The notes under the pieces: model-generated
What the model saw: only the letters and a program-made list of their open reading frames with translations
Told to the model about the DNA's origin: nothing
The model's database searches: none
Shown here: positions 2,512-28,855 of the stretch, in pieces
Position numbering within the stretch: the stretch's first letter is position 1
How the letters are laid out: each line of letters begins with the position of its first letter
DNA from: Flavobacteriales bacterium
Lineage (GTDB): Bacteria; Bacteroidota; Bacteroidia; Flavobacteriales_D; Cryomorphaceae
Assembly: GCA_020201045.1 (NCBI GenBank)
Contig: JAIVHP010000289.1
Span: forward strand, 1 to 35,107
Length of the DNA stretch: 35,107 bases
Direction: 5' to 3'
Made by a program: the position numbers and the translations under genes

Positions 2512-3778
2512 TTCATATATCTTTGAATAGGTCCCAAAAGGTTATAGGACTGATTCCAATATATATGACCCCAGGCCCTTTGAAATAAATCGGAATTCCT
2601 GTTTATAAATGACATGCTACTTACGGATGTTTTATATGTTCCATTAAAGTGCGATACATTAATTCTTGCTAATCTATTTGTACTAACTACCCTTACCTCA
2701 TTGATAGTTTGATTGCTCCAGCTTACTGTAGCCTTTACTTTTTCTCCATTTATAATTAGATCTCTGGAGTATAGTGACTTTGCAATCGATCCTCTTCCAA
2801 TATGGACTATTATGAATGCTTTCCATATCAAATAAATCATCAATTTTTAGGGTGCCATTCGATTTTGTAATTTGGCTTGCCTTCCTATAAGCGTTTAATA
2901 ATTGCTTGAAATCTTCTTCTGAATTACCCGTGGTAGGATTTGCCAAAGTAGCACCGTCTGCTCCATTGACAGATGCTGTAACGTCTATTCCAAGAGCGGT
3001 TCCAAATTTTTCCAAATTTGTTACTTTACTACCTGTTATAAAATTTAATCCTTTAGATTTAGCTTCTAGACCAGAAGAGACACCTCCTATCGTCGCTCCA
3101 GAAAGTGCTCCAATACCACCTCCCTTTAAACCCGAAACGAGACCATCACCAAGACTCATATCATGCAACCAAGCATTTCCAGCGCTATTTATAAATCCAC
3201 CAGTAAACCCAGATGCACCCCCCTGAATAGCACCGTTAATGAACCCTAAACCACCTCCTAGCAGTAAAAACAAACTCCCCATCCGGATCCACATACACCA
3301 CCGGGTTATTCCCAATTCCCAAATAAGGATTGTGGAACTGCTCCGCAGGGTCGGGCGTAAACCAAACCCCTAATTGCGGATCATAGAAGCGAGAACCAAA
3401 GTCAAACATTTCAAGCCCCGTGCTTAAGCTGCTATCAAATTCGCCGGTCTGTAATTCCTTACTGGTATACTTATTCAGGTACTCATCAGAATTGCTGTTA
3501 AGCCCTGCAATGGTGAGGCCATAAGGATAGTAATCATTGATTTGTCGAAGCTTTCCGCGTTGATATTGCACCAGGAAGTTATCGAAGTTAACAGCCGCAT
3601 CACTACCATTACTCACATATGCGTGTAAGTACCCATCTTGCCCCACATCTAAGTCGTTTCTTATAAGAGTTTCCAGCGCGTTGGGGTTTTGAACTTTGGC
3701 GGCGCCTGAGTGAGTTCGACAGCCAGATCGGGCTCCTGATGTATTCGAAAAATGATATGTGATGCTCACTCCACTCAT
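2508..3778 (-). pseudogene. RHS-repeat-associated core tip plus C-terminal cargo domain, split by two apparent frameshifts and lacking the RHS head
   Basis: ORF 3236-3778 has the RHS core 'NDYYPYGLTIAG...YLNKYTSKELQTG...FDFGSRFYDPQLGVWFTPDPAEQFHNPYLGIGNNPVVYVDPDGEF'; the cargo continues in ORF 2698-3315 (LFLLLGGGLGFINGAIQGG...) and then ORF 2508-2843 (GRGSIAKSLYSRDLIINGEKV...). Confidence 0.75.
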
Positions 3779-5092: not shown

Positions 5093-6991
5093 TTATTCGT
5101 CCATTAATCGCGGATATCTTCCTTTATAAAAATCCCAGTTTATTCCAAGTCGATTGAAATACCATCCAGAATAACTGTTCGCTTCACGTTCATACCATTT
5201 CTCATTATGGCCTGTACTTCCAGCACTGTTTAAGCTAAGAAACCCTGGAACAAAATATAATGGACCCCATGTCTGACTTTGTAGTGTATGACCGTATTCG
5301 TGCATAAAAAGCGGGTCTTGAAGGAGATGATCTTTAAAATCTCCCTGAATTTCATCACGTATACTAATATTAATATGGTTACCGATGCTAATACCCCACC
5401 TGTCTTCATTATTTTCTCCAGTAGAGAAGGTAACCCCACCGAAGTAATCAACCCGGTCTACACCGCCAAATGTATTTCTCATTTGACTAAACCCATGACC
5501 AATAGCAGACTGCGGAAGCTCCCAACTAAATCTGCTTATACCTTGCCATGTCTGTCCAAAAAAGTTTCTGTTTTCATCCAGATAAAAATTACCACCAAAC
5601 TGTTCCCATGTATTTCCAAGCCTACTCCAATCTCCAGACGCTATACCATGGACAGTATTCGCAACAGTGCCTATGGCTGTAGGCGCTGCGTATGCAAGTC
5701 CTGCAACTTTAATTGCAGTGCCCAATACAGGAACACCTAAACCTAAAGTAACACCTGTGGCTATCGTAGCTCCTGCCACAAAACCAGATCCGAAGGCTTT
5801 CAAACCATCACCGAAATTATTGATATCCCCATTTGATGCCTGAATTCCAAGATTGACACTGCCGAAAACAGCACCAGCAATTACTGGAATCATCCATGCA
5901 AACTCCCCATCCGGATCCACATACATCACCGGGTTATTCCCAATCCCCAAATAAGGATTGTGAAATTGCTCAGCAGGATCGGGCGTAAACCAAACGCCGA
6001 GTTGCGGGTCCCTTCGACACGCGCAAATTCTCCGCACCATCTGCTCAGGGCAGGCTGCAAAACGACTACCAAAGTCAAACCCCGTAAAGGTCACGCGGTT
6101 ATACGGTACGTCATCCACGTCAATGAATACGGCGTGACCTGACGGGGCAGGCATCTCCAGTCCTGTACTTAAACTGCTGTCAAACTCTCCGGTCTGTAAT
6201 TCCTTACTGGTATACTTATTCAGGTATTCATCAGAATTGCTGTTAAGACCCGCAATGGTGAGGCCGTACGCGATAGCCGGAGCGAAAGCGAAGGGTGAGC
6301 CGTAATCGTTTATTTGCCGGAGTTGTCCACGTTGATATTGCACCAGGAAATTATCGAAGTTCACGGCCGCATCGCTTCCATTACTTACCCATTCGACTGC
6401 TGACGCACAAAACATCGGCGCACGCTCAGGGCAAGCATAAGCCCCGACATGAAGCCGGGGTTCATGGCTGTAAGGGCTCGTTCCTGCGCCCAACAGCCAT
6501 AGAACATACAAATATCCGTCTGCACCCACATCCAAGTCGTTTCTAATGATGGTTTCCAACGCGTTGGGGTTTTCAACCTGGGCGGCGCCCGAGTGGGCCA
6601 CATCGAGATTCATATTCTGATCGTATAACATCCAAACCAGGTAGGCGTGGGGCTTGTCTACGTCGGTGGTGTCAAACTCAGTTGACAATAAGCTCATAAT
6701 GGAGTTGTTCAAGGTCTGATCCCCGCCAGATGCCATATTGATCAGTTGGCTTTCTCCCAAATTCAAAACGCTCGAGCCGCTGGCTGCCAGTGAAATCAAA
6801 ATTTCGTTGAGCAAAAAATCCATATTCTGATAGGTGGTGCCGGGCGCATCTTCTTCGTAGAAATACGACGTGCTTAGCGCTACCTTATCGCCCTTTTTGA
6901 CGGGCATTACGAGCGATGGGCCAATTTCGGTGCCATTGGCTGCCGCTATTGTTGTATAGCTTTTACTGTTGAATGTTTCATCTCCAATCAT
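5093..6991 (-). CDS. Headless RHS-core protein with C-terminal HEYGH (HExxH) metallopeptidase-like domain
   Basis: RHS core 'DPQLGVWFTPDPAEQFHNPYLGIGNNPVMYVDPDGEF' then 'DPLFMHEYGHTLQSQTWGPLYFVPG...HNEKWYEREANSYSGWYFNRLG'; lacks the long upstream RHS/YD-repeat region. Confidence 0.8.
   Translation of the reverse strand: MIGDETFNSKSYTTIAAANGTEIGPSLVMPVKKGDKVALSTSYFYEEDAPGTTYQNMDFLLNEILISLAASGSSVLNLGESQLINMASGGDQTLNNSIMSLLSTEFDTTDVDKPHAYLVWMLYDQNMNLDVAHSGAAQVENPNALETIIRNDLDVGADGYLYVLWLLGAGTSPYSHEPRLHVGAYACPERAPMFCASAVEWVSNGSDAAVNFDNFLVQYQRGQLRQINDYGSPFAFAPAIAYGLTIAGLNSNSDEYLNKYTSKELQTGEFDSSLSTGLEMPAPSGHAVFIDVDDVPYNRVTFTGFDFGSRFAACPEQMVRRICACRRDPQLGVWFTPDPAEQFHNPYLGIGNNPVMYVDPDGEFAWMIPVIAGAVFGSVNLGIQASNGDINNFGDGLKAFGSGFVAGATIATGVTLGLGVPVLGTAIKVAGLAYAAPTAIGTVANTVHGIASGDWSRLGNTWEQFGGNFYLDENRNFFGQTWQGISRFSWELPQSAIGHGFSQMRNTFGGVDRVDYFGGVTFSTGENNEDRWGISIGNHINISIRDEIQGDFKDHLLQDPLFMHEYGHTLQSQTWGPLYFVPGFLSLNSAGSTGHNEKWYEREANSYSGWYFNRLGINWDFYKGRYPRLMDE
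6011..6060. repeat. In-frame insert 4 in RHS core (net +45 bp versus the paralog)
   Basis: 'ccttcgacacgcgcaaattctccgcaccatctgctcagggcaggctgcaa' between gggtc and aacgactacc; the paralog has only 'ataga' here. Confidence 0.75.
6081..6152. repeat. In-frame insert 3 in RHS core: 72-bp palindromic element
   Basis: Absent from the paralog (gtcaaac|atttcaag versus gtcaaac|72 bp|atctccag); near-terminal inverted repeat ccccgtaaaggtcacgc / gcgtgacctgacgggg. Confidence 0.8.
6266..6302. repeat. In-frame insert 2 in RHS core (net +27 bp)
   Basis: gtacgcgatagccggagcgaaagcgaagggtgagccg replaces ataaggatag of the paralog. Confidence 0.65.
6389..6508. repeat. In-frame insert 1 in RHS core (net +111 bp), apparently composite
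   Basis: Encodes YVLWLLGAGTSPYSHEPRLHVGAYACPERAPMFCASAVEW in place of HAY in the paralog; includes gttcatggctgt...acagccatagaac inverted repeat. Confidence 0.75.
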
Positions 6992-7362
6992 CCGTAGAGA
7001 TTTAGTTTCAAATAGCGAAAATCTTTCTTATTCAACGTATACAGCGGCAATTCATGCACAACTGAAGTAGCCGCAATCAATGCGTCTGGTAATGAAAGAC
7101 GGTGTGAAAGGGCATATTGCGAGATCAGTTCTATTGCGAGTCCTGAAATACCCACATTAATCGGCAGACAATTTATTTTCTTAATATCGTTTTTGAGAAT
7201 TTCCAATTCACCTTTGTTTCTTGCACCGAACAATAATTCACCTGCGGTAACATCTGAAATGCAGATTTTTTTATCTCCAATAAGATTCATTTTCCGAAAT
7301 ACTGTTTCATTGCCTTTATACAGTTCTATCAATACATGGGTATCGCACAAAACTTTACTCAT
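6988..7362 (-). CDS. PIN-domain (VapC-like) toxin
   Basis: MSKVLCDTHVLIELYKGN...ISDVTAGELLFGARNK...LSHRLSLPDALIAATSVVHELPLYTLNKKDF: PIN motifs with acidic residues. Confidence 0.85.
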   Translation of the reverse strand: MSKVLCDTHVLIELYKGNETVFRKMNLIGDKKICISDVTAGELLFGARNKGELEILKNDIKKINCLPINVGISGLAIELISQYALSHRLSLPDALIAATSVVHELPLYTLNKKDFRYLKLNLYG

Positions 7363-7823: not shown

Positions 7824-8030
7824 ATTTCGCGAAATCCCGAACTCGTTTCGGGACTCTCGTTCCCATCTGTCCTTCGGCGGAGTTCAAGCATCTGCCAATC
7901 GGCGAAGCACAAGCGTCAATGCTATTTTATTAAATGATTTACGCAGATACTAGGACTCCGCCGCATGGCGGAGGAGCTCAAGCGTCTGCGCTATTTTTTT
8001 GCGTACAGGTATCATATAACTAAAAGGCTA
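7824..8030. repeat. Intergenic cluster of dispersed repeats and small palindromes
   Basis: atttcgcgaaatcccgaactcgtttcggga, gatttacgcagatact + ctccgccgcatggcggag, and tatcatataactaaa all recur near 23.0-23.25 kb. Confidence 0.75.
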
Positions 8031-22923: not shown

Positions 22924-22994
22924 GTTTCAGATTTTTTCAAATAGGGTTGCCGCACGTTTCAAAAAAAAAAGGATTTTCAGGAAAGTAGCGTTTT

Positions 22995-23245
22995 GATTTA
23001 CGCAGGTACTTTGATTCCGCTGCATGGCGGGGCTCAAGCTTCGGTGCTTTTTTTACCTTTTATGCAGCTCAGCTATGGTTTCACAGAGCGCAGAGCTAAA
23101 AACCTATCATATAACTAAATCGCTTTATTTTTTTTAGTGATTTACGCAGATACTGTTCCTCCGCGGGATCGCGGAGGAACAGTGATAAAAGGGACAACCA
23201 AAGCTCAAACTGATGCCCCGAAACAAGTTCGGGGTTTCGCGAAAT
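22995..23245. repeat. Intergenic repeat cluster matching the 7.8-8.0 kb cluster
   Basis: gatttacgcag(g/a)tact at 22995 and 23139; perfect palindrome gttcctccgc-gggatc-gcggaggaac (23155-23180); ccccgaaacaagttcggggtttcgcgaaat (23216-23245) is the inverted counterpart of 7824-7853. Confidence 0.8.
23042..23084. repeat. 43-bp direct repeat, copy A (copy B at 23377-23419)
   Basis: cggtgctttttttaccttttatgcagctcagctatggtttcac present identically at both positions. Confidence 0.9.
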
Positions 23246-27998: not shown

Positions 27999-28012
27999 AC
28001 TCCCCTGCGTCA

Positions 28013-28134
28013 AGCTCGCTTGAAAGCAGGGGAGTAAAAAGAAAACCAGCGCTGAGAATCAGCGCGTGGTTTCTATGGGTTGTCACTCCCCCCTCAAGGA
28101 TCGCCCCGACGCATGTCGGGGCAATCCTGAGGGT
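28013..28134. repeat. 122-bp exact tandem duplication, unit 1
   Basis: agctcgcttgaaagcaggggag...gcaatcctgagggt, repeated identically at 28135-28256. Confidence 0.93.
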
Positions 28135-28256
28135 AGCTCGCTTGAAAGCAGGGGAGTAAAAAGAAAACCAGCGCTGAGAATCAGCGCGTGGTTTCTATGG
28201 GTTGTCACTCCCCCCTCAAGGATCGCCCCGACGCATGTCGGGGCAATCCTGAGGGT
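28135..28256. repeat. 122-bp exact tandem duplication, unit 2
   Basis: Identical to 28013-28134. Confidence 0.93.
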
Positions 28257-28313: not shown

Positions 28314-28855
28314 GACCTGACAGGTTTTTGCAACCTGTAAGGTCTCGACTGCATAAAGATGCAGGTGATACTGAGAAGCAAGAGCCCTGCAGTCCATATG
28401 TTAAATGCGTCTGTTTTTGAATTTAGGTGCGGGAACCTTTTTTCTTTTAGCGCTCTTCGGGAAGACCTTACAGGTTTTTGGAAACCTGTCAGGTCAGTTG
28501 TGGCCTGTAAGGTCTCGATAGAAAAACTTGCGGGTGTTCGATAGAAGCAAGTTCCTTGCAGCTGATATGATAAAGCTTTCGGTTATTGAGTTTAGTTGCA
28601 CAGGAACCTTTTCTCTTTTAGCGCTCTTTGGGAAGACCTGACAGGTTTTTGGAAACCTGTCAGGTCAGTTGTGGCCTGTAAGGTCTCGATAGAAAAAACA
28701 TACGGGTGTTCGAGAGAAGCAAGTGCCCTGTAGCTGATATGACAAAGCCGTCGGTTTTAGAATTAGGTGCAGCAGCCTTTTCTCTTTTAGTGCTCTTCGG
28801 GAAGACCTTACAGGTTGCAAAAACCTGTCAGGTTAGTTGTGGCTTGTAAGGCGCC
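28314..28855. repeat. Four-unit hairpin array, unit spacing 150, 171 and 169 bp
   Basis: gacct(g/t)acaggtt...aacctgt(c/a)aggt(c/t) hairpins start at 28314, 28464, 28635 and 28804, with conserved 'cttttag(c/t)gctctt(c/t)gggaa' before units 2-4 and 'gtaaggtctcga' in units 1-3. Confidence 0.88.

Follow-up and report, generated by a model that had tools for sequence, protein, structure and literature searches.

The Rhs tail gene and its surplus segments

The 35,107-nucleotide (nt) window analyzed here, contig JAIVHP010000289.1 of an uncultured Flavobacteriales bacterium (Cryomorphaceae; assembly GCA_020201045.1, hereafter G000), carries on its minus strand an orphan Rhs tail gene, of toxin-delivery type, that contains a 72-nt palindromic element, termed insert 3 or alpha. 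The open reading frame (ORF) encodes a short N-terminal part, then the Rhs core, and at the C-terminus a variable part with an HEYGH motif. By sequence, the core resembles solved Rhs/Tc-type proteins and insect SGS proteins. A Pfam search of the host ORF gave zero family matches, and the Rhs core profile TIGR03696 reached 28.1 bits (cut-off 32.5), with profile positions 39-75 alone matched. The same profile scores 47.2 bits, over positions 1-75, on an uninserted paralog fragment near 3 kb in the window. The genome holds several orphan copies of Rhs tails, and two more paralogs come from its contigs C368 and C70. All comparisons use draft assemblies, that of G000 being 87% complete.

Alignment of the four copies reveals four surplus segments in the host, inserts 1-4. 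Inserts 1 and 2 are present in C368 and inserts 3 and 4 are absent from it, while the 3-kb paralog and C70 are without all four. The features are as follows, with ^ marking the insertion point in each Rhs site.

3236..3778, minus strand: uninserted Rhs paralog fragment, 180 residues
5093..6991, minus strand: host ORF, orphan Rhs tail, 632 residues, with HExxH-containing C-terminal part and partly matched Rhs core profile
6010..6058, minus strand: insert 4 (beta, GCCTGCCCTGAGC...GTCGAAGG), net 45 nt, Rhs site ARF^YDPQLG, absent from the paralogs
6081..6152, minus strand: insert 3 (alpha), 72 nt, encoding PAPSGHAVFIDVDDVPYNRVTFTG, Rhs site GLEM^(F/Y)DF
6080..6096, plus-strand sequence: inverted-repeat arm of insert 3, CCCCGTAAAGGTCACGC
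6097..6131, minus strand: variable interior of insert 3, 35 nt, unlike the interiors in two other genomes with alpha (G007 and G442)
6132..6147, plus-strand sequence: inverted-repeat arm of insert 3, GCGTGACCTGACGGGG
6270..6300, minus strand: insert 2 (delta, CACCCTTCGCTTTCGCTCCGGCTATCGC), net 27 nt, Rhs site DY^YPYGL, present also in C368 but not in the 3-kb paralog or C70
6390..6505, minus strand: insert 1, net 111 nt, Rhs site H(A)^YVSNGS, absent from two paralogs

The 3-kb paralog seems frameshifted just after DPDGEF, and C70 (L013) near GSDAA; these uninserted copies may be decaying orphans. The end of a PIN-domain (VapC-like) gene at 6988-7362 and the beginning of the Rhs tail ORF have 4 nt in common.

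The 72-nt palindrome and its copies

Insert 3 is missing, without any loss of sequence, from all three paralogs of its own genome, and in the paralog the target shows no duplication beyond one ambiguous base. This base, a C, allows the boundary to be placed equally at 6081-6152 or at 6080-6151. The first-pass annotation had described a clean 72-bp insertion into an intact target, which is borne out by the uninterrupted sequence in 3236-3778, C368 and C70. It had also singled out insert 3 as the best-defined element of the locus, and among the four host inserts this one alone has perfectly clean junctions. Its length is a multiple of three, as noted then, adding 24 in-frame residues on the minus coding strand.

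The two arms pair into a stem of ~15 bp with one bulged base, closing the 35-nt interior. Of the near-perfect inverted ends proposed earlier, the pairing around a ~35-nt interior stands, but only one end of the inverted repeat is flush, the other carrying an unpaired tail of 4-5 nt, CAGG(C). Read on the coding strand, the arm at 6132-6147 together with this tail is CCTGCCCCGTCAGGTCACGCC. Insert 3 folds better than its dinucleotide shuffles, with z-scores of -3.0 and -3.6 as RNA and -3.3 as DNA, and it stands out when the whole window is scanned for folding. The other top-ranked stretches of that length coincide with insert 1 or fall near 23.1 and 28 kb, around the tRNA and repeat arrays. At 28004-28247 there is a tandem 122-nt repeat (97% identical), after which ACCTGACAGGT / ACCTTACAGGT palindromes form an intergenic array at 28315-28833, with similar palindromes elsewhere in the genome. 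A TGATTTACGCAG(A/G)TACT...CTCCGC-like repeat is present three times, at 7923-7975, 22982-23034 and 23126-23178.

Searches of G000 by BLAST and arm patterns returned no further alpha copy, leaving insert 3 single in its genome. Alpha was rejected as a genome-wide repeat family, since neither BLAST nor arm patterns nor a class-wide scan yielded more than chance-level matches outside the Rhs copies. A tie to the intergenic ACCTGACAGGT repeats of G000 was likewise discarded, two-mismatch matches being no commoner than those of a reversed-pattern control. Among viral contigs, the alpha arm occurred in 2 related ones, neither palindromic.

Across 84,980 genomes, the exact palindrome pattern matched 9 times, twice in Rhs genes (L051, L054) and seven times without comparable context. 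Whole alpha copies are thus found in Flavobacteriales MAG29 (G007; L033/L051), whose coordinates and sequence agree with those of G007 and which belongs to the same family as G000, and in G442 (L054), on a contig binned as Kiritimatiellae. The latter contig is probably mis-binned, since its Rhs part is 89% identical to that of G007. Together with G000 this makes three complete copies known, and a contig of G005 (C31, L038) begins inside another, truncated one. Within the Rhs core, all copies sit between GLEM and (F/Y)DF, and they share one frame, as had been anticipated for intragenic copies. The accompanying expectation of copies both in genes and between genes failed for alpha; such dispersal was seen for the insert-4 (beta) kind only.

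The hairpin is retained in all three complete copies, and the left arm, CCTGCCCCGTCAGGTCACGCC, is identical in them. Between G000 and G007, this arm matches at 21/21 nt while the flanks match at 199/336 (59%), and the interior has diverged. Among codons for the same amino acid, 7/7 are identical in the arm as opposed to 25/68 in the flanks (p 0.0017). The amino acids of the loop show no conservation. G007 and G442 agree at 66/69 positions over the entire insert and at 176/237 in the flanks (p 3.6e-5). The first-pass annotation had named two outcomes as speaking against such an element, a lack of related sequence elsewhere and 24 residues conserved with codon-level divergence. Neither was observed: related sequence is present in three other genomes, and the arm has identical codons beside a loop that is not conserved.

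Recurrent inserts at fixed Rhs sites

An alignment of eleven Rhs cores displays at least seven sites with in-frame inserts, from four to five genomes: HA^YVSNGS, RQ^INHYY, DY^YPYGL, ELQ^TGEF, GLEM^(F/Y)DF, ARF^YDPQLG and GNN^PVMYV. Every net insert length at these sites is a multiple of three, and about six kinds of short in-frame insert occur in the Rhs cores of this Flavobacteriales family. Insert 1 consists of a gamma hairpin (TGGCTGTTGGGC..GCCCTTACAGCCA), a CCCCGGC hairpin and then a beta-type segment; it is common to the host and C368 at 98% identity, and a beta-type relative occupies its site in G005:C139. Shorter beta copies are found at the insert 4 site in G442 and G005, so that the beta kind (GCYTGYCCTGAGC...CGAA) extends over two Rhs sites and three genomes. 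G000 and G005 have the gamma hairpin at two different Rhs sites. Alpha and beta share their 8 starting bases at the 5' end of the coding strand, GCCTGCCC. Hairpins are significant in the alpha, gamma and G004 inserts. In G004:C4, two adjacent Rhs copies (L045, L086) have in common an insert at GNN^PVMYV, RTKREESLRGSDLASGQPARE (net 19 residues), that forms a strong hairpin. Among the full-length TIGR03696 matches listed for the order, large inserts in Rhs cores were not seen to be widespread, split matches being liable to hide some.

Insert 4 and, within insert 1, segment 1b are of the beta kind and belong to a widespread repeat, GCCTGYCCTGAGCGNAGTCGAAGG, which is read by frame as ACPERSRR, RLRSGQA or PVLSAVEG. 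Beta lies outside long ORFs in G003 and G023, and elsewhere in frame within other proteins. The compact repeat, spread over unrelated contigs, was located at:

G003:C12:41173-41194: GCCTGYCCTGAGCGNAGTCGAAGG
window 6010-6058: GCCTGYCCTGAGCGNAGTCGAAGG, at insert 4
L158-L183: GCCTGYCCTGAGCGNAGTCGAAGG, in 26 viral contigs

Neither gamma nor delta was found when searched for in viral contigs. GCCTGYCCTGAGCGNAGTCGAAGG and its peptide strings were not found printed in the literature searched, a negative limited to that body of papers, and the repeat is apparently undescribed and unnamed. A very common environmental repeat is thereby seen entering protein-coding genes.

The strongest evidence for the age of the inserts comes from the host and C368. 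Over inserts 1 and 2 the two copies are identical at 141/143 positions, with 0 synonymous differences in 38 synonymous sites. Their flanks match at 362/419, with a synonymous divergence (dS) of 0.72 and a dN/dS of 0.08 (insert versus flank, p 4.9e-6). The 91 nt separating the two inserts have diverged like the remaining flanks (78/91 identical), and on most sides the first differences come a few bases from an insert edge. Conservation of inserts 1 and 2 takes in the whole of each, beyond the arms. This suggests that the inserts entered host and C368 as units, at identical sites and later than the separation of the flanks, and that they spread as units into fixed sites, given 0/38 synonymous differences against a flank dS of 0.72. 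The low dN/dS shows that purifying selection has governed most of the evolution of the host genes, and this accounts for the fact that all inserts observed are in frame.

We consider it probable that insert 3 is a palindromic element, non-coding in origin, which inserted in frame into the core of the Rhs tail without target-site duplication and is one of a set that recurrently enters fixed Rhs sites. Such elements would move as units into preferred Rhs sites, the Rhs protein would tolerate the 24-residue surplus segment, and the reading frame would then be kept by selection on the host protein. Tentatively, and most simply, a single-stranded hairpin might be handled in trans by a hairpin-recognizing HUH/IS200-type enzyme, or be copied in by hairpin-templated repair. 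G000 has two Y1_Tnp (RAYT-type) genes, L139 (G000:C131) and L144 (G000:C373), each adjoined by other repeats, GTAGCTGCGCTCTTTCAGAGCTT and GTGGGGTCGTTGCGCGCAACGACCCCACTA. A RAYT link in G442 was dismissed, the apparent k-mer matches (L142, L152) being different elements. More speculatively, Rhs cores could hold fixed landing sites that time and again receive or swap palindromic cassettes, constant in their arms and variable inside, which would diversify segments of delivery proteins, an idea to which we give little credence.

Several observations weigh against insertion by a mobile palindrome. No mobilizer is linked to the inserts, and neither Y1 locus of G000 shares 12 or more nt with them. 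Ordinary mobile repeats differ from alpha, which is present in one copy per genome and confined to Rhs genes. As the beta inserts fold weakly, hairpin formation may not be a common feature of the set. The low divergence of the inserts could also stem from very short conversion tracts or from constraint at the DNA level.

Alternatively, homologous recombination might exchange insert-bearing Rhs tails between paralogs and genomes, with inserts that arrived once spreading passively without mobility of their own. The several orphan tail copies in G000 and the single site shared by every alpha copy would agree with such exchange. The high identity between host and C368, however, spans two inserts while excluding both the sequence between them and the flanks, with differences beginning close to most insert edges, and G005 has its gamma hairpin at another Rhs site, which makes tail exchange unlikely. 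The hairpin might also be functional in DNA or mRNA, as a signal for recombination or pausing ahead of the Rhs tip, which would leave the arms constrained and the loop free. Arms that are (near-)identical between genera around a variable loop, and a hairpin kept in all three complete copies, point in this direction, but insert 3 is missing from most Rhs copies, the beta inserts form no strong hairpin and the conservation of inserts 1 and 2 reaches throughout, beyond the arms, so that we regard a functional signal as distinctly improbable. Ordinary length variation of an Rhs surface loop, lost in the paralogs, accords with an in-frame insert in a gene under purifying selection, but is very improbable in view of arm codons identical at 7/7 versus 25/68 in the flanks, unconserved loop residues, the palindromic design, the 8 bases shared with the beta repeat and the lack of insert 3 in all other own-genome paralogs.

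Comparison with known palindromic elements

An Rfam scan of the window returned one tRNA and nothing else. By description, the closest parallels are Rickettsia palindromic elements (RPEs), short palindromes that lie in frame within ORFs, add a peptide and form several families per genome (PMC10969869, PMC3733652). The Rhs inserts are likewise palindromic, in frame inside an ORF and of several kinds in one genome. In contrast to RPEs, which occur in many unrelated genes, alpha is single-copy, restricted to one site of one gene family, and combines constant arms with a variable loop; the likeness is one of description.

Some repetitive extragenic palindromes (REPs) of the GTAG and CGTC types also lie within ORFs, encode 20-30 residues and consist of a stem with an unpaired tag at one end, and CGTC REPs have no dedicated transposase (PMC3733652). 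Alpha shares the intragenic position and the stem with a tag at one end. Its tag is GCCTG, however, and its stem-loop spans ~67 nt as compared with 20-40 nt in REPs. REPs are high-copy and mainly intergenic, whereas alpha is very low-copy with no intergenic copies, and beta is dispersed and partly intergenic. In the GTAG type the RAYT gene is flanked by the same element, while other repeats accompany the Y1_Tnp loci of G000. Miniature inverted-repeat transposable elements (MITEs) resemble alpha in having inverted repeats at or near their ends and in being non-autonomous, and they can fuse in frame with genes. Alpha differs from them in lacking a target-site duplication, and no parent insertion sequence was seen.

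As copy number, tag, size and target-site duplication differ, the Rhs insert set is a variant and not a member of the RPEs, REPs or MITEs. It is best read as comparable to RPEs and intragenic REPs but distinct, an Rhs-targeted variant. Palindromes lying in frame within functional genes have been described chiefly in Rickettsia and in some genomes rich in REPs. With inserted and uninserted paralogs side by side, one site filled in several genomes and undiverged inserts within flanks at dS 0.72, these Rhs genes offer a compact comparative system in which to approach the question of how such elements enter genes.
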